From Candidatus Gastranaerophilales bacterium (GTDB taxonomy: Bacteria > Cyanobacteriota > Vampirovibrionia > Gastranaerophilales > Gastranaerophilaceae): a stretch of DNA of 41,182 nt. Made by a program: the position numbers and the translations under genes. Of the stretch, positions 12,574 through 39,594 are shown piece after piece; positions within the stretch are counted from its first letter, which is position 1, and each line of letters starts with the position of its first letter. The notes under the pieces were generated by a model. The model had not been told where the DNA came from and ran no database searches. It worked only from the letters and a program-made list of their open reading frames with translations. The DNA is taken from the NCBI GenBank assembly GCA_944326475.1, contig CALVEC010000019.1:1-41182 (forward strand), read 5' to 3'.

Positions 12574-12897
12574 TTAGTATTTAAACGAGCGTTCAATATT
12601 CTTTTCGAGCATTTGTTCACAAGATTCAAGCTCAGTATTAATCATCTGGATTTTTTCCTTGTAGTGCTGCATTTGCAAGTCAAGTTCCTTTTCCATAATA
12701 TGAAGCCGCTCTTTTCGTGCCTCAAGCTTTTTGACCAGCGGGTCGTCAGAGTCCAAATCAGACCCGACGTTCAGCAAATCAGAGACAGTTTTTGACAGAT
12801 TCATCTTAGCTTCGGCAACAAGATGTTCTTTGTATTCAAGATCGAGCCTGTATGCAGTGAGGTACATCACTCGCATTTGAGCTATTGCCAATCCCAT
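12574..12897 (-). CDS. Small coiled-coil protein, short form of the MGxAxxQxR head/tail family
   Basis: This 107-residue, mostly helical protein starts MGLAIAQMRVMYLTAYRLDL and ends NTELESCEQMLEKNIERSFK. Both ends align without gaps to the 324-residue protein encoded at 13699-14673: M1, G2, A4, Q7, R9, A15, E21, Y22 and V27 at the head, and TELES, NI and FK at the tail. It is thus a version of that protein lacking the central domain. Heptad-like spacing from about residue 50 to 100 suggests a coiled coil. There is no signal peptide. It lies downstream of another orphan on the same strand and is divergent from its long relative. The family is unknown to me by function. Confidence 0.72.
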   Translation of the reverse strand: MGLAIAQMRVMYLTAYRLDLEYKEHLVAEAKMNLSKTVSDLLNVGSDLDSDDPLVKKLEARKERLHIMEKELDLQMQHYKEKIQMINTELESCEQMLEKNIERSFKY

Positions 12898-12948
12898 TTT
12901 GGACCACCCTTATCTAGTTTTTTTGACTTTCACACAATCCTTTTTGGA

Positions 12949-13221
12949 TTATCTTGTAGTATTGAATTTGTTTCCGTAGAGGAAAACATGTTCGTTGTTT
13001 TCTGCAATCAGCTTTTCCATCTGCTCAAGTTTGTACATCTGGTAATTAACTCTATATTTTGCCATTTTAAGCTTTTTACCCATAGTAAGGTAATTTTTAA
13101 GAATTTCAGCAAACATATTAGCTATTACAACTACAGGGTTATTTCTCTTAAGGTAAGAAATCATATACCCTATGAAGTTCAGCATATTCTGCAGATTGTA
13201 CTGAATTGCACTTTGTAACAC
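12949..13221 (-). CDS. Small hypothetical helical protein
   Basis: This 90-residue protein is unrecognised. The N-terminal half is hydrophobic and helical (MLNFIGYMISYL, then VVVIANMFAEIL) and the second half is basic and coiled-coil-like (YRVNYQMYKLEQMEKLIAEN). It could be a membrane-associated or partner-binding helix bundle. The ribosome-binding site (AAAGGAG) lies upstream of the ATG. It is followed 51 bases later by the short head/tail family gene on the same strand, and the two are likely cotranscribed. The pair is divergent from two plus-strand orphan genes, so the four look like one locus. Confidence 0.6.
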   Translation of the reverse strand: MLQSAIQYNLQNMLNFIGYMISYLKRNNPVVVIANMFAEILKNYLTMGKKLKMAKYRVNYQMYKLEQMEKLIAENNEHVFLYGNKFNTTR

Positions 13222-13698
13222 TTACTTGCTCCTTTACGGGTCTACATAACTATAAAAACATTGAACGTTGATTTATTGCCTATGTACAAAAATTTTTTAA
13301 TAATTCTTTACTTTTCGTCTGCTTTAGCCGTTATCGGGCTGCTTCCCTGTTGATTTATAAAATCATAATAAATCGTTCGTTCTATGTTATTTATCGGCAT
13401 TCTTTTCCGTTTTCTTTAATTAAATTTCACCAAAAATAAAAAAATTGAAACAAAATGTTACATTCAAAAATGAATAAACCTATTTTCCGGCTTAAAAAGA
13501 AATATTTCTATAACCAAACCTTTATAAGTAAAAAACTACATTGTCTGTATGATTTTAAACCAAAAAACTTTAAAACCCCTGAAAAAGCGGATATAATAGG
13601 AAAGTAACATTAATTAATATAAAATACGAGAAATATTGACTAATTTACAAACGTCATTAAATACAAAATAGGAAGTTAATTAATACGGAGACACAAAT
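13222..13698. other. Divergent promoter region of the orphan locus
   Basis: This gap of 477 bases holds no gene. It is very AT-rich from about 13250 to 13690. A consensus TATAAT sits at 13592-13597 on the plus strand, with a weak -35 (TTTAAA, 13569-13574) at 17-bp spacing, giving a leader of about 95 bases before the 13699 start. CGGAG lies 8 bases before that ATG. A promoter for the minus-strand pair must also lie here, but I cannot place it with confidence. Confidence 0.45.
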
Positions 13699-14673
13699 AT
13701 GGGTATGGCAGCTTCTCAAGCCAGATATTTAGGTATCCAGGCAAGAAAAACAAATGTAGAATACGAAGGTCAACAGGTAAACCAGCAGCGTACAGCACTT
13801 GCGAACCAGAGTGCAAATCTTTTCAGAAGATTGTTGACGCTTGAAGTTCCGACACCTCCTGACCAGACAAATTATAAAACCAGCAACTACACCTTCTCGG
13901 ATGCAACAAGTTCAGACGGAAACGCAACAATAGAAGAAATAACCGCAAATGAAGGCACAGATCCTCAGACTTATACTGTCAATATTCGCAGAAACGTAAC
14001 GGTGCCGCAGTATGGCGCAATGACGAATCAAGAGGTTTCTGTTATAAAAGACGGCGATACCTACAAGATGAATCTTTCAAACGGCACGCAATTCACTCTT
14101 AACGGACCTATAACCCCGCTTAGTGAAACCTATGTAAATGCTTTTAATGAACTTGGTTCTACCGAGTACGAAAACAGCACTGACGATACATATTACCGTT
14201 ACACAAACCCGGCTACAGGCGCAACTTACTACATAAACGCAACTCAAACCGGTTTTAACCCTGATGTACAGACGAATCAGACTATTGATATGTTTTCTAT
14301 GATATCAGGAACGGAACAACAGTATCAAACTATTACGAATGCTACACTGGGTAAAAGTGAAGAAGGTATTTATACATCAATTTATTGGACAGACGACGAA
14401 GGCTCTCACAGCTATAATCTCACTCCGTCCTCGGAATACGATGATGCAGCTTACGATGCTGCAATGAATCAGTACAACTATGACAAAGAACTTTATGACA
14501 AAGAAGTTGCTGATATAAACGCAAAAACACAGGAGCTTCAGGAACAAGACAGAACGCTTGAACTCCGTCTTGCGCAGCTTGATACAGAGCAGCAGGCTCT
14601 CCAAACAGAGCTGGAATCAGTTAAAAAAGTTATTGATTCAAACATTGATAATGTATTTAAAACATTCCAGTAA
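13699..14673 (+). CDS. MGMAASQAR head/tail protein with large central domain
   Basis: This 324-residue protein has three parts. The helical head (1-50) starts MGMAASQARYLGIQARKTN. A Thr/Asn/Tyr-rich, probably beta-rich centre spans about 55-265 (for example NYTFSDATSSDGNATIEE). The C-terminal coiled coil (about 266-324) contains LAQLDTEQQALQTELES and ends NIDNVFKTFQ. Head and tail align without gaps to the 107-residue protein at 12574-12897. Conserved terminal helices around a variable middle resemble the layout of flagellin-like or other filament or secreted-tip proteins, but no sequence match to flagellin is claimed. There is no classical signal peptide. The next gene starts 29 bases downstream and is likely in the same operon. 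Confidence 0.78.
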   Translation: MGMAASQARYLGIQARKTNVEYEGQQVNQQRTALANQSANLFRRLLTLEVPTPPDQTNYKTSNYTFSDATSSDGNATIEEITANEGTDPQTYTVNIRRNVTVPQYGAMTNQEVSVIKDGDTYKMNLSNGTQFTLNGPITPLSETYVNAFNELGSTEYENSTDDTYYRYTNPATGATYYINATQTGFNPDVQTNQTIDMFSMISGTEQQYQTITNATLGKSEEGIYTSIYWTDDEGSHSYNLTPSSEYDDAAYDAAMNQYNYDKELYDKEVADINAKTQELQEQDRTLELRLAQLDTEQQALQTELESVKKVIDSNIDNVFKTFQ

Positions 14674-14702: not shown

Positions 14703-15518
14703 ATGTCTTACAAAAATGACGGATATCTTGTAATAGCAAACAAATTCGGAACGGCAAGTTCAGATGCCAAAGCACAGTTGTTTGAAACTTATGACAGACT
14801 GCGCGACATAACAGTCAGCGGTTCAGCTCTGGACGGCGCCGGTTTTGGTACAGCCGGAAGTTTTCTGTGGCAAATAGCAAGACTTATTGCACCAAGTGCA
14901 TTCATGCCTGTTATGGGCGGCAATACAACGATGAACATCCCAGGAACATCATATTGGTCTCCGATTAGCGGCGGCAACTCTATCCTTGACAGCGGAAGTG
15001 CGGCATTTGGTATAACCGGGCTTGGCAACTACCCCGGGTTTCCGTCAGGAGCTGCCCCGATAACATGGGGGTTCGGCTCTGAAAGCGGAATAGCTACAGG
15101 AGGTGCGTCAGGTCTCTACGATGCTGCAAACATAGGAGGCTCTGTCGGTGTAAACGCAGCTGCTTACGGTGCCGGAGTTGCGTCGGGATTTGGTGTACCC
15201 GGAACAAGCTGGGTTCTTCCGACTGCAGGTGTTGTATCCGGTGTAGCCGGCGTTGTGCAAGCAATGGCACCTTATATGGGTGTGTTCGGACTTGGTGCTA
15301 CAGTTGCAGGTAACCTTTTGCAAGGTACCACATCAGCAGCTCTTGCCGCTTATCAGAATATTTCCGGTCAAATCGTTGCAAATGCGGATTCTATTTTATC
15401 CAATAAAGTAAGAAATATTGAAACTGTCGTCAAAATGCTTGACACGCAGGGCGATATTGTTAAAAAGATGCTTAAAGACTCCATTGAAAGTGACAGCAAG
15501 CAAGTTCAAAATATGTAG
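14703..15518 (+). CDS. Hypothetical Gly/Ala/Ser-rich protein with hydrophobic hairpin
   Basis: This 271-residue protein is unrecognised. A short helical start (NKFGTASSDAKAQLFETYDR) is followed by a long low-complexity Gly/Ser/Ala/Pro region (about 45-175). A hydrophobic glycine-rich pair of helices follows (about 180-215, with GVVSGVAGVVQAMAPYMG), and then a helical, coiled-coil-like tail (SNKVRNIETVVKMLD to the end). Hydrophobic hairpins inside otherwise polar proteins occur in membrane-inserting secreted proteins, but this is only an analogy. GAGG lies 5 bases before the ATG. It follows the 324-residue head/tail gene closely and probably works with it. Confidence 0.7.
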   Translation: MSYKNDGYLVIANKFGTASSDAKAQLFETYDRLRDITVSGSALDGAGFGTAGSFLWQIARLIAPSAFMPVMGGNTTMNIPGTSYWSPISGGNSILDSGSAAFGITGLGNYPGFPSGAAPITWGFGSESGIATGGASGLYDAANIGGSVGVNAAAYGAGVASGFGVPGTSWVLPTAGVVSGVAGVVQAMAPYMGVFGLGATVAGNLLQGTTSAALAAYQNISGQIVANADSILSNKVRNIETVVKMLDTQGDIVKKMLKDSIESDSKQVQNM

Positions 15519-35726: not shown

Positions 35727-37046
35727 TTATATCTGACTTTGTTCATTTATGGAAATAATTTCTATTGCACCTGCCTGACAAATATTTTCACAAGCTCCGC
35801 AGCCTATACATTTTGCGGCTTTGTAAACCGGAGTTTTTCCGGGTTTGTGTTCAAATGCCTCTTTCGGACAAATATGTGCACAAAGCCCGCATTTTGTGCA
35901 TTTTTCATAATCCAGCATAACAAGTCCAATCCTGCAATTCTGCTTTTCTTTAAGTGTCATCTTTTTTATTGCGCCGGTCGGGCAAACATCTGAACAATTT
36001 TTGCAGTCATACTCGCATTTTCCGCTGCTGTAATCAATATGCACGGTGTCATACTCTGCATCCGGCTTTTTAAGAATTTTTCCTTTGCAATGTTCAACGC
36101 AAAGTCCGCAATTTGTACAGCTCATTGCGAAACGTTCGGGTGAACCGGCACCCGGGGGACAGATAGGACGCTTTTTAAATGTTTCAACAATTGCCCCTGC
36201 AACTTCTTTTCCTTTTGCAAAAACAGCAATTGCGGCAGCAGCAATTATTCCTGTTGCAATAAAATTACGCCTTGACGGAATAAATTCGATTTTTTCTTCT
36301 TTTTGCCCAAAAAGTATTCCTCCGCCCGGACACTTTGCAATACAGCGCATACAGCGTATGCAACGCTCATTATCAAGAGACTTGGCTTGTGAATCAATAG
36401 CTCCGGTCGGGCATTCCTTTTCGCATTGACCGCAGCCTTTGCATATTCCATCTGAAATATAGAGTTTGTACGGACTGAATTTTGAACATACTCCCAAAAT
36501 AGTTCCGACAGGACATATTGTTGTACAAAATATTCTGTTTTTCCATAAAACAAGCGCCCCAATAATTATTAAAGGCAAAAATGTCCAAAAAGACGCTGAT
36601 TTTATATTCAAAAATCCGGTTAAAATATTTCCGAAGTTTGAATAAGGATCTACAAACCTTAACACTGCAGTAGTTCCCGCAAGCATCAAAGCAATAACTA
36701 CAGCTAAAACAAAATACCTTACATAATGTAAATTTTTTGTTTTGCCTGATTTTCTTCTTGCGAGAGCGCCTATAATGTCTTGCAAAATACCGAAAGGGCA
36801 CACAACCGAGCAGTAAAAGCGTCCGAACAAAAACGCCGCAAGCATATTCACAATAACAATTAACAGTGTTACTATGGAAAAATTCATTATCAGCTTTGCA
36901 CAGGCGGCGCCAAAGTTAAGCTGCAGCACATAAGCAAGCGGCTTGCAAAAAGGTGTAAAAGCCAGCACCGTCACGGTAAACATCACAAAAGCAATGCTCA
37001 ATCTGATGATATAAGGTTTTTTGTTCCCTCTGAATTTTTTAAACAT
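35727..37046 (-). CDS. NapH-NapG-like fused membrane polyferredoxin with internal Tat motif
   Basis: This 439-residue iron-sulfur protein has two halves. The NapH-like half (1-250) has membrane helices, two CxxxCP loops (79-84, 174-179), and 4Fe-4S sites at Cys202/205/208/212 and Cys229/232/235/239. It is followed by SRRNFIATG (258-266), a twin-arginine motif, and a hydrophobic helix to about 280. The NapG-like half (292-439) starts RPICPPGAGSPERF and holds four more clusters at Cys310-320, 344-355, 383-393 and 413-423. In nitrate reduction NapH and NapG pass quinol electrons to the periplasm. Here no nitrate reductase is near, so the electrons probably reach the adjacent iron-sulfur aldo/keto reductases. 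Its start overlaps the preceding stop (TAATG). Confidence 0.85.
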   Translation of the reverse strand: MFKKFRGNKKPYIIRLSIAFVMFTVTVLAFTPFCKPLAYVLQLNFGAACAKLIMNFSIVTLLIVIVNMLAAFLFGRFYCSVVCPFGILQDIIGALARRKSGKTKNLHYVRYFVLAVVIALMLAGTTAVLRFVDPYSNFGNILTGFLNIKSASFWTFLPLIIIGALVLWKNRIFCTTICPVGTILGVCSKFSPYKLYISDGICKGCGQCEKECPTGAIDSQAKSLDNERCIRCMRCIAKCPGGGILFGQKEEKIEFIPSRRNFIATGIIAAAAIAVFAKGKEVAGAIVETFKKRPICPPGAGSPERFAMSCTNCGLCVEHCKGKILKKPDAEYDTVHIDYSSGKCEYDCKNCSDVCPTGAIKKMTLKEKQNCRIGLVMLDYEKCTKCGLCAHICPKEAFEHKPGKTPVYKAAKCIGCGACENICQAGAIEIISINEQSQI

Positions 37047-38284
37047 TATGCACCCGCAAGTCTTTTATATTCTTTATCTACTTTTTCTAATAGAGTTGGG
37101 ATATCAAGTTGTTGAGGGCATTTAGCTTTGCATAGTCCGCATTTTATACACTTATCAGCACGTTCTGACTCTCTTAATGCGCCATAATGGCTGATGAAGC
37201 CGACTTCTCCCATGCCTGTTGTATCCTGTTTATACTGATTGTACAGAGAAAATATGCTTGCAATATCGACTCCGACCGGACATTCACAGTATCTGCAGCC
37301 GGTGCAGCCGATTGTCTGGTTTTTAAGGTGTGCTGCAAGCGCCTCGTCATAAACTTTTTGTTCTTCTTCTGAGAGCGGTTTTAGATTTTTAAATGTTTTA
37401 ATATTGTCATCAAGGTGCTCGGGTTCAGTCATGCCGCTAAGCATTGTAAAAATACCGTCTAAACCCGCAAGCCATCTGAACGCCCAGGCTGCAGGCGATA
37501 TATCCGGATTGTAGTCTTTGAGAATTTTGACTGCTTCCGGGTTCAGATTTGCAAGAGCACCGCCTCTTAACGGCTCCATAACAACAATCGGAAGTTTTGC
37601 TTTTCTTGCTATGTTATACTGTTCTTCACCGCGGCATGTCTTCCAGTCTATTCTGTTAATCTGAAGCTGAACAAACTCCCACTTATCATAATAGTCAATA
37701 ATTTCCTGCAAGAGCTCCGGCGTATCGTGGTGTGAAAAACCGAGATATTTAATTTTTCCTTCTTTTTTCATTTTTTCTAAAAAAGGAATTACATTGAATT
37801 TTTTTGTATTTTCCCAGTTATGCTTATTCAGACAGTGCACCAGATAAAAGTCAAAATGGTCTGTTTGACAGCGCTCAAGCTGCTCATTAAAAATCCGCTC
37901 AACATCTTCTTCTTTTTCAAGCATCATGACAGGCATTTTTGTCGTAAAATTAAACGAATCTCTGTCATACTTCTTGAGAGCGTCCCCCATAGCCTTTTCG
38001 CTCTTTCCGTTCATGTACATATATGCTGTATCAAAATAGTTTATTCCCGCATTGATAGCTGTTTCAACCATTTTTTTATTAAGCGCATCGTCGATATTTC
38101 CATTTGCATCGGTTGGTAGCCTCATTGCCCCAAAACCAAGCTTTGAAACGTTAATGTTTTTGAATTTGGAAACAGCAACCCCGCCGGTCACAGCAGGCGC
38201 CTCTGATTTTAAAGTGCAGCCGCTCAACAAAACTGCGCTGCCGGCAGCTAAAATAGAATTTTTTATAAACTCTCGTCTGTTCAT
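37046..38284 (-). CDS. Tat-exported aldo/keto reductase lipoprotein with ferredoxin tail (copy 1)
   Basis: This 412-residue protein begins MNRREFIKNSILAAGSAVLL with the twin-arginine motif at 3-4 and a lipobox SGC at Cys23. The aldo/keto reductase barrel follows, with the catalytic tetrad Asp85, Tyr90, Lys116 and His150. The C-terminal domain has two 4Fe-4S-type Cys clusters, CTGCRYCECP (about 333-342) and CIKCGLCKAKCP (about 379-390). This type of enzyme uses NAD(P)H in the cytosol; outside the membrane electrons would have to come through the iron-sulfur clusters. It shares a TAATG overlap with the polyferredoxin gene and lies 80 bases after its paralogue, all on the minus strand. The substrate is unknown. 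Confidence 0.88.
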   Translation of the reverse strand: MNRREFIKNSILAAGSAVLLSGCTLKSEAPAVTGGVAVSKFKNINVSKLGFGAMRLPTDANGNIDDALNKKMVETAINAGINYFDTAYMYMNGKSEKAMGDALKKYDRDSFNFTTKMPVMMLEKEEDVERIFNEQLERCQTDHFDFYLVHCLNKHNWENTKKFNVIPFLEKMKKEGKIKYLGFSHHDTPELLQEIIDYYDKWEFVQLQINRIDWKTCRGEEQYNIARKAKLPIVVMEPLRGGALANLNPEAVKILKDYNPDISPAAWAFRWLAGLDGIFTMLSGMTEPEHLDDNIKTFKNLKPLSEEEQKVYDEALAAHLKNQTIGCTGCRYCECPVGVDIASIFSLYNQYKQDTTGMGEVGFISHYGALRESERADKCIKCGLCKAKCPQQLDIPTLLEKVDKEYKRLAGA

Positions 38285-38364
38285 TTTTTCACTCTAACTT
38301 TAATTAAGTACCCTTACACTAACATGCTATCACTTGATACTTACTCTAAGTCAAGTAGTTTGTA

Positions 38365-39594
38365 TTACATTCCTTTGAGGGTCTTGTATTTTTTATCTAT
38401 TTTTGCAAGTAATGAGGGAATATCTAGCTCTTGCGGACATTTGGTTTTGCAAAGTCCGCATTTTACACATTTATCCGCGCGTTCGGATTCTTTTAATTTT
38501 TCATAATTATATACAAATTGCTTTCCGCCATAAAAATTATTTACTGCAAATATTTCAGGAATATTTACGCCAATTGGGCATTCGCAATATTTACAGCCTG
38601 TACATCCAAGAGAAACTGTTTTCAAATATGTATTTATTGCTTTTGTATAAATCTTGTCTTCTTCATCTGAAAGCGGTTTGAAATTTTTAAAAGTTTTTAT
38701 ATTATCTTCTAAATGTTCCGGCACTTTCATCCCGCTCAGTATGGTCATAATACCATCTAAACCGGCAAGCCATCTGAATGACCAGGATGCAATACTTGCA
38801 TTAGGATTGTAATCTTTAAGAATTTTGGCGGATTCTTCATTTAGCATGCCAAGAACACCGCCTCTCAACGGTTCCATGACAACAATCGGAAGTTTAGATT
38901 CTCGTGCAATTTTATATAATTTATCAGCTTTATTTCTTTCCCAATCCAATTTATTTAGCTGTAATTGTACAAAATCCCAAGAATCAGTACAGCTAACAAC
39001 CTCCTTAAGAAGTTCGTCATTTCCATGGTGAGAAACCCCAAGATATTTAATTTTCCCCTCTTTTTTCATTTTCTCTAAAAAAGGAATTATATTATGCTTG
39101 CGCGCATGTTCCCAATTCGTTTTTCGTACTGCATGAAGCAGATAGAAATCAAAATAATCAACCTTACATCGTTCCAGTTGTTCATTAAAAATCCGATACA
39201 AATCATCTTCTTTTTTTACAGATAGAATAGGCATTTTTGTCGCGAGATTAAATGAATCGCGTTTGTACTTTTTTAAAGCTTTGCCCATTGCCTTCTCGCT
39301 TTTTCCGTCTATATAGACGTATGCGGTATCAAAATAATTAACACCTGCTTTAATAGCTGTATCAACCATTTTTTGGTTAAGCACATCGTCAACCTCTCCG
39401 TCCTTTTTTAACGGTAATCTCAATCCCCCAAAGCCAAGTTTTGATATTGAGAGGTTGTTAAATTTATAGCAATCAATACCCCCTTTTTTTACATCTATAG
39501 AGCCGCCCGACAAGGGGGTCAATGAGCATCCGCTTAGAAAAACCGCACCTGACGCAGCCAGCAGAGAATTTTTTATAAATTCACGTCTATCCAT
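38365..39594 (-). CDS. Tat-exported aldo/keto reductase lipoprotein with ferredoxin tail (copy 2)
   Basis: This 409-residue paralogue of the next gene shares its whole plan. MDRREFIKNSLLAASGAVFL has the twin-arginine pair at 3-4 and a lipobox SGC (Cys23), the barrel has Asp/Tyr/Lys/His catalytic residues (FDTAYVYIDGKSEK, TKMP, LLHAV), and the C-terminal clusters are CTGCKYCECP and CVKCGLCKTKCP. The two proteins are clearly similar over the full length but differ throughout, so the duplication is old. AAAGGA precedes the ATG. It is the first gene of the run that goes on to tatA and tatC. Different substrates for the two copies are likely but not shown. Confidence 0.88.
   Translation of the reverse strand: MDRREFIKNSLLAASGAVFLSGCSLTPLSGGSIDVKKGGIDCYKFNNLSISKLGFGGLRLPLKKDGEVDDVLNQKMVDTAIKAGVNYFDTAYVYIDGKSEKAMGKALKKYKRDSFNLATKMPILSVKKEDDLYRIFNEQLERCKVDYFDFYLLHAVRKTNWEHARKHNIIPFLEKMKKEGKIKYLGVSHHGNDELLKEVVSCTDSWDFVQLQLNKLDWERNKADKLYKIARESKLPIVVMEPLRGGVLGMLNEESAKILKDYNPNASIASWSFRWLAGLDGIMTILSGMKVPEHLEDNIKTFKNFKPLSDEEDKIYTKAINTYLKTVSLGCTGCKYCECPIGVNIPEIFAVNNFYGGKQFVYNYEKLKESERADKCVKCGLCKTKCPQELDIPSLLAKIDKKYKTLKGM

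Follow-up and report, generated by a model that had tools for sequence, protein, structure and literature searches.

The window analysed here, 41,182 nucleotides of a Candidatus Gastranaerophilales bacterium, carries two divergently encoded proteins of 107 and 324 residues that resemble each other at both ends and differ by a long middle. This raises the question of whether they form one family and, if so, what such a family would do for the cell.

Shared ends of a short and a long protein

BLASTP aligned the short protein (P0001) with the long one (P0002) in two colinear ungapped matches, one covering residues 1-42 of both (E 5e-4), the other residues 52-106 of P0001 and 267-321 of P0002 (E 2e-7). 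The first-pass annotation had described such ungapped alignments at the ends of these two open reading frames, both of which lie where it had placed them, and the nine head identities it had named (M1, G2, A4, Q7, R9, A15, E21, Y22 and V27) are all correct. Coiled coils may match by composition, and we therefore built head-only and tail-only profiles from long proteins alone and tested them on 30 short proteins, with shuffled short proteins and background open reading frames as controls. The head profile scored a median of 18.1 bits (18.4 for P0001) against maxima of 3.7 for shuffles and 3.9 for background; the tail profile scored a median of 24 bits (28.5 for P0001) against 9.4 and 10.9. Every short protein was thus recognised far above the controls in the profile search that had been proposed. 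When profiles were compared by hhalign, head matched head (96.2%, E 2.5e-9, 44 columns) and tail matched tail (95.3%, E 2.2e-8), while crossed pairs of head and tail gave no match. Because the profile scores and the hhalign matches agree at both ends, the assignment of P0001 and P0002 to one new protein family, which we call HT (head/tail), is secure at the level of sequence comparison.

In an alignment of the long proteins the share of sequences carrying the majority residue is 0.83 for the head and 0.73 for the tail, and falls to 0.33-0.49 in the middle. This bears out the earlier suggestion of a single family whose ends are conserved while its middle varies, and supports the description of its conservation profile as flagellin-like. 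That no known family is named by the sequence also held: there was no credible match in Pfam or NCBIfam, where Pfam returned weak matches to generic coiled-coil families, and a sequence search of solved structures with queries A1, A2 and A3 gave nothing credible. Among the Pfam matches of the 30 short proteins there was no needle or translocator family. A hydrophobic signal sequence is absent from the first 40 residues of HT proteins.

The HT gene block

The features of the locus are collected in Table 1. We searched 84,980 species genomes with the 271-residue neighbour of the long protein (m271) and found 340 relatives, of which 80 were kept; their labels include Gastranaerophilales and a Cyanobacteria MAG. 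All 76 loci with enough upstream sequence have a long HT gene immediately before m271. The p90 and short HT genes occur together downstream of the ~271-residue gene in 41 of the 74 loci with enough sequence, and p90 adjoins the short gene in 41 of the 41 loci that have either. In the closest relatives the block is co-directional, in the order long HT, ~271 residues, ~90 residues, short HT, and G041, from a different family of the order, has the same block.

Table 1. Features of the HT locus in the window.
Feature	Coordinates	Strand	Evidence
P0001, short form (107 aa), predicted to fold as a helical hairpin (H2-45, H53-105)	12574..12897	-	BLASTP, profiles, hhalign, AlphaFold
p90, ~90 aa, accompanies the short gene; no family match	12949..13221	-	gene block
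Intergenic region between two divergent gene pairs	13222..13698	.	comparison with close relatives
P0002, long form (324 aa), with predicted helices at 2-47 and 249-323 around a beta-rich middle (about 57-247)	13699..14673	+	AlphaFold, VIA
m271, Gly/Ala/Ser-rich, hydrophobic stretch near residues 167-203, conserved C-terminus	14703..15518	+	alignment, gene block

The divergent arrangement noted at first is therefore a feature of this window and not of the family, whose genes run one way in relatives. Compared with the three closest relatives, positions 12574-13400, holding the short gene and p90, are inverted and moved, and a breakpoint falls at about 13401-13546, within the intergenic region. 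The inversion may be a real rearrangement or a fault of the draft assembly. A tail common to m271 and HT was considered and rejected, the score being only 8-10 bits and not above the best background. Elsewhere in the window (37046-39594) lie two adjacent aldo-keto reductase-like paralogues whose C-terminal ends are rich in Cys and ferredoxin-like.

The window's own genome (G000), a draft of 2.14 Mb in 35 contigs, holds five HT members by the profile criteria (102, 107, 226, 324 and 337 aa). The copy count in related genomes that had been proposed returned HT matches in 57 of 59, often many in each and up to 23 per genome; the open frames range in length from about 180 to about 990 aa.

A second export machine and its co-occurrence with HT

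The window's own genome encodes two FlhA proteins that are 37% identical. One is flagellar (857.6 bits, above the FlhA cut-off of 772.1); the second reaches 699.7 bits, short of the flagellar as well as the injectisome cut-off. The second FlhA gene adjoins genes resembling FliF, FliH and FliI and one with weak similarity to FliG, and a separate cluster encodes a ~211-aa protein, a tandem-SpoA protein (SctQ), FliO, FliP, FliQ and FliR. In G041 a whole operon is found, with FlgF/G-like, FlgB, FlgC, FliE, FliF, two FliG-like, FliH, FlhA and FliI genes. Thirteen genomes without flagellin keep the second FlhA, FlhB and the tandem-SpoA protein; FliE-FliF-FliG-FliH, FlgB/C/F/G-like rod genes and FliOPQR are present in those of them that were examined, and the SpoA-FliOPQR part also occurs in flagellin-less G009 and G010. 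Judged by this gene content, the second FlhA is part of a predicted, complete second flagellar-type export machine. In the second gate FliQ and FliR are separated by a small protein with a likely signal peptide (L193:9662-10003); at the corresponding place G009 has another, of 122 aa (L195:5492-5860). A further FlhA-related protein, of 490 aa in the window's own genome (L046:9387-10859, contig C1), joins an FlhA cytoplasmic domain to an unrelated N-terminal part, and proteins of this kind, with the cytoplasmic domain only, occur in nearly every related genome.

Judged by flagellin, P-ring, FliG torque domain and FlhA score, the second machine does not classify as a flagellum: neither the P-ring protein FlgI nor the torque domain (FliG_C) was found in the 13 flagellin-less genomes. 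Nor does it classify as a non-flagellar type III secretion system (NF-T3SS), its FlhA and FliI scoring below the NF-T3SS cut-offs. We considered a dedicated secretin and rejected it, as there is one secretin per genome and that of the window's own genome adjoins a PilB/GspE-like ATPase; no outer-membrane channel and no SctF were identified for the machine. It resembles the secretin-less, early-branching NF-T3SS of Myxococcales (Abby and Rocha 2012, PMC3459982), being presumably flagellum-derived, free of motility parts and without a recruited secretin, but unlike that system it retains FlgB/C/F/G-like rod proteins and FliE. The second cluster is also similar to the 'partial flagella gene sets' of Gastranaerophilales (PMC3787301, PMC4040986, PMC5877343), with two flgG, flgC, fliF, fliH, flhA, fliI and a second flhA. 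The available passages of these papers treat the sets as flagellar, complete or reduced, and make no mention of the HT/m271/p90 block; in the available text of Soo et al. (PMC4040986) such sets are held insufficient for a functional flagellum. In a literature search that covered mainly openly accessible papers we found no publication linking Gastranaerophilales with a type III system of their own.

The presence of HT genes follows this second machine. Of the 382 genomes sampled from the class, 286 belong to the order Gastranaerophilales, and HT was found in every one of these. In the 96 genomes outside the order it occurs in exactly 18, the same 18 that have the second FlhA (in one of them only a fragment), and it is absent from 24 genomes with only the flagellar-type FlhA and from 54 with neither FlhA. 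This co-occurrence spans few families and therefore represents few independent events. Seven genomes of the order (G137, G212, G236, G294, G322, G340 and G363) have HT with no second FlhA detected; these absences are perhaps assembly gaps. HT persists in the 13 genomes without flagellin.

Gene linkage is partial. In one clade the HT block lies ~5 kb from FliE-FliF-FliG-FliH-FlhA in five genomes chosen for close coordinates, and among the 80 loci fetched regardless of linkage it lies ~5 kb from a FliE-FlhA operon in five. FliI adjoins a long HT gene in one locus (L111) and is 2.6 kb from one in G040. In the window's own genome the HT genes are not adjacent to core T3SS genes. In the clade where block and operon are linked, a ~211-aa protein adjoins the short HT gene, and a 42% identical orthologue stands beside SctQ-FliOPQR in the window's own genome. 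Proteins of this type (~211-231 aa; L193:5985-6680 and L051:7233-7868), found beside the export gate or beside a short HT gene, are candidate chaperones or sorting factors. Presence tracking, together with linkage in some clades, supports a link of HT to the type III export machine.

Two readings that would separate HT from a second secretion machine can be weighed at this point. HT proteins could be additional parts of an ordinary flagellum (cap, junction or sheath), with the second cluster a flagellum in decay, and the available part of PMC3787301 does suggest ongoing genome reduction. We consider this improbable: flagellin-less genomes keep both HT and the second FlhA, HT is missing where only the flagellar-type FlhA occurs, and the window's own genome has both FlhA types, of which only the flagellar one passes the cut-off. 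The missing signal peptide and the weak coiled-coil matches would instead suit an intracellular coiled-coil scaffold without any link to secretion. This too we hold to be improbable, given the T3SS linkage, the exact co-occurrence and a fast-varying beta-rich middle set between conserved terminal helices.

Predicted structures and the likely role of HT

Structure prediction of each protein, which had also been proposed, gave a two-helix hairpin for P0001 (pLDDT 89.9, pTM 0.70) and, for P0002, two terminal helices that pack together in the model around the variable middle (pLDDT 85.5, pTM 0.48). When the P0002 model was searched with VIA-align, flagellar axial proteins filled 16 of the 17 top rows with both helices aligned together, including FlgL (117 residues at 2.1 Å, Z 7.9) and flagellin (109 residues at 2.4 Å, Z 9.2). 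The flagellin-like layout suggested at first is thus reproduced in the models, although with long helices Z values of 6-9 may stem from an arrangement that is common and are only modest evidence. Foldseek searches of the PDB with either model gave no match with E < 0.001. For P0001 the first Foldseek row was the IpaB coiled coil (TM 0.83-0.88), which at E 0.014 is not significant, hairpins being common, and the VIA list was filled by generic hairpins. P0001 resembles injectisome needle and translocator proteins (SctF, the IpaB coiled coil) as a two-helix hairpin, a generic fold. The helical proteins LapA3 and LapA4 were among the same Foldseek rows, which would fit HT proteins leaving the cell by a different route, in the manner of the LXG/Lap-type helical substrates of type VII secretion. 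We regard this as very improbable, as that list is full of generic helical hairpins without a significant E-value and HT presence follows the second FlhA.

HT proteins are like flagellin and other axial proteins (FlgL, FlgE, FlgG, FliD) in their conserved terminal helices, which superpose in the predictions, in their variable middle and in their tie to a flagellar-type export machine. They differ in having no detectable sequence homology to these proteins at either end, in being present in flagellin-less genomes and in including a 107-aa form without a middle. At the level of sequence we rejected descent from flagellin (FliC), for which there was no Pfam match and hhalign of the ends against flagellins of the same order stayed below 1%. 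Descent of the head from flagellar rod and hook N-termini, suggested by a resemblance, was rejected as well: hhalign against 47 rod and hook N- and C-termini gave at most about 1%, and Pfam found neither the Flg_bb_rod N-terminal motif nor Flg_bbr_C in HT. An identity as the filament cap FliD was dismissed at 15.4 bits for FliD_N against a cut-off of 24.8. The window's own genome has 23 Flagellin_N matches; the frames that hold them include several of only 160-190 aa and others above 600 aa.

We favour the reading, at a probability of roughly 0.55, that HT proteins are extracellular structural substrates, that is, axial needle, filament or tip subunits, of the second, non-swimming flagellar-type T3SS. 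The gate and ATPase of this machine (second FlhA, FlhB, FliPQR and FliHI) would export them in unfolded form, with no Sec signal involved. Once outside, the conserved terminal helices would pack as a coiled coil and the subunits would polymerise: the short hairpin would be the smallest unit of the shaft, and the long forms would expose their variable beta-rich middle at the surface. m271 may assist as a helper or as a partner of the translocator type; chaperone or sorting functions may fall to p90 and the ~211-aa protein.

The main rival makes HT proteins effectors or adhesins secreted through the second T3SS, their ends being export or chaperone signals and the middle a payload, with no appendage built. 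The association with the machine would be identical, and the many paralogues, long frames and poorly conserved middles would fit such substrates. We nevertheless think this unlikely, because the tail is conserved nearly as well as the head, axial proteins can be superposed on both ends, a payload would not fit into the short form and m271 always has the long gene upstream of it.

If HT proteins are structural substrates, common gut bacteria of the cyanobacterial lineage keep a further type III machine equipped with appendage proteins of its own, and this machine would offer a living example of a flagellum turned into a non-motile secretion device. More tentatively, and with the odds against it, Gastranaerophilales and three related families may build a non-rotary, flagellum-derived appendage in which the unrelated HT proteins replace flagellin on a retained rod, a type III form between flagellum and injectisome that possibly contacts host or neighbouring cells. 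If the structural reading is true, the family would supply a set of candidate surface proteins for contact with the host or with other microbes.
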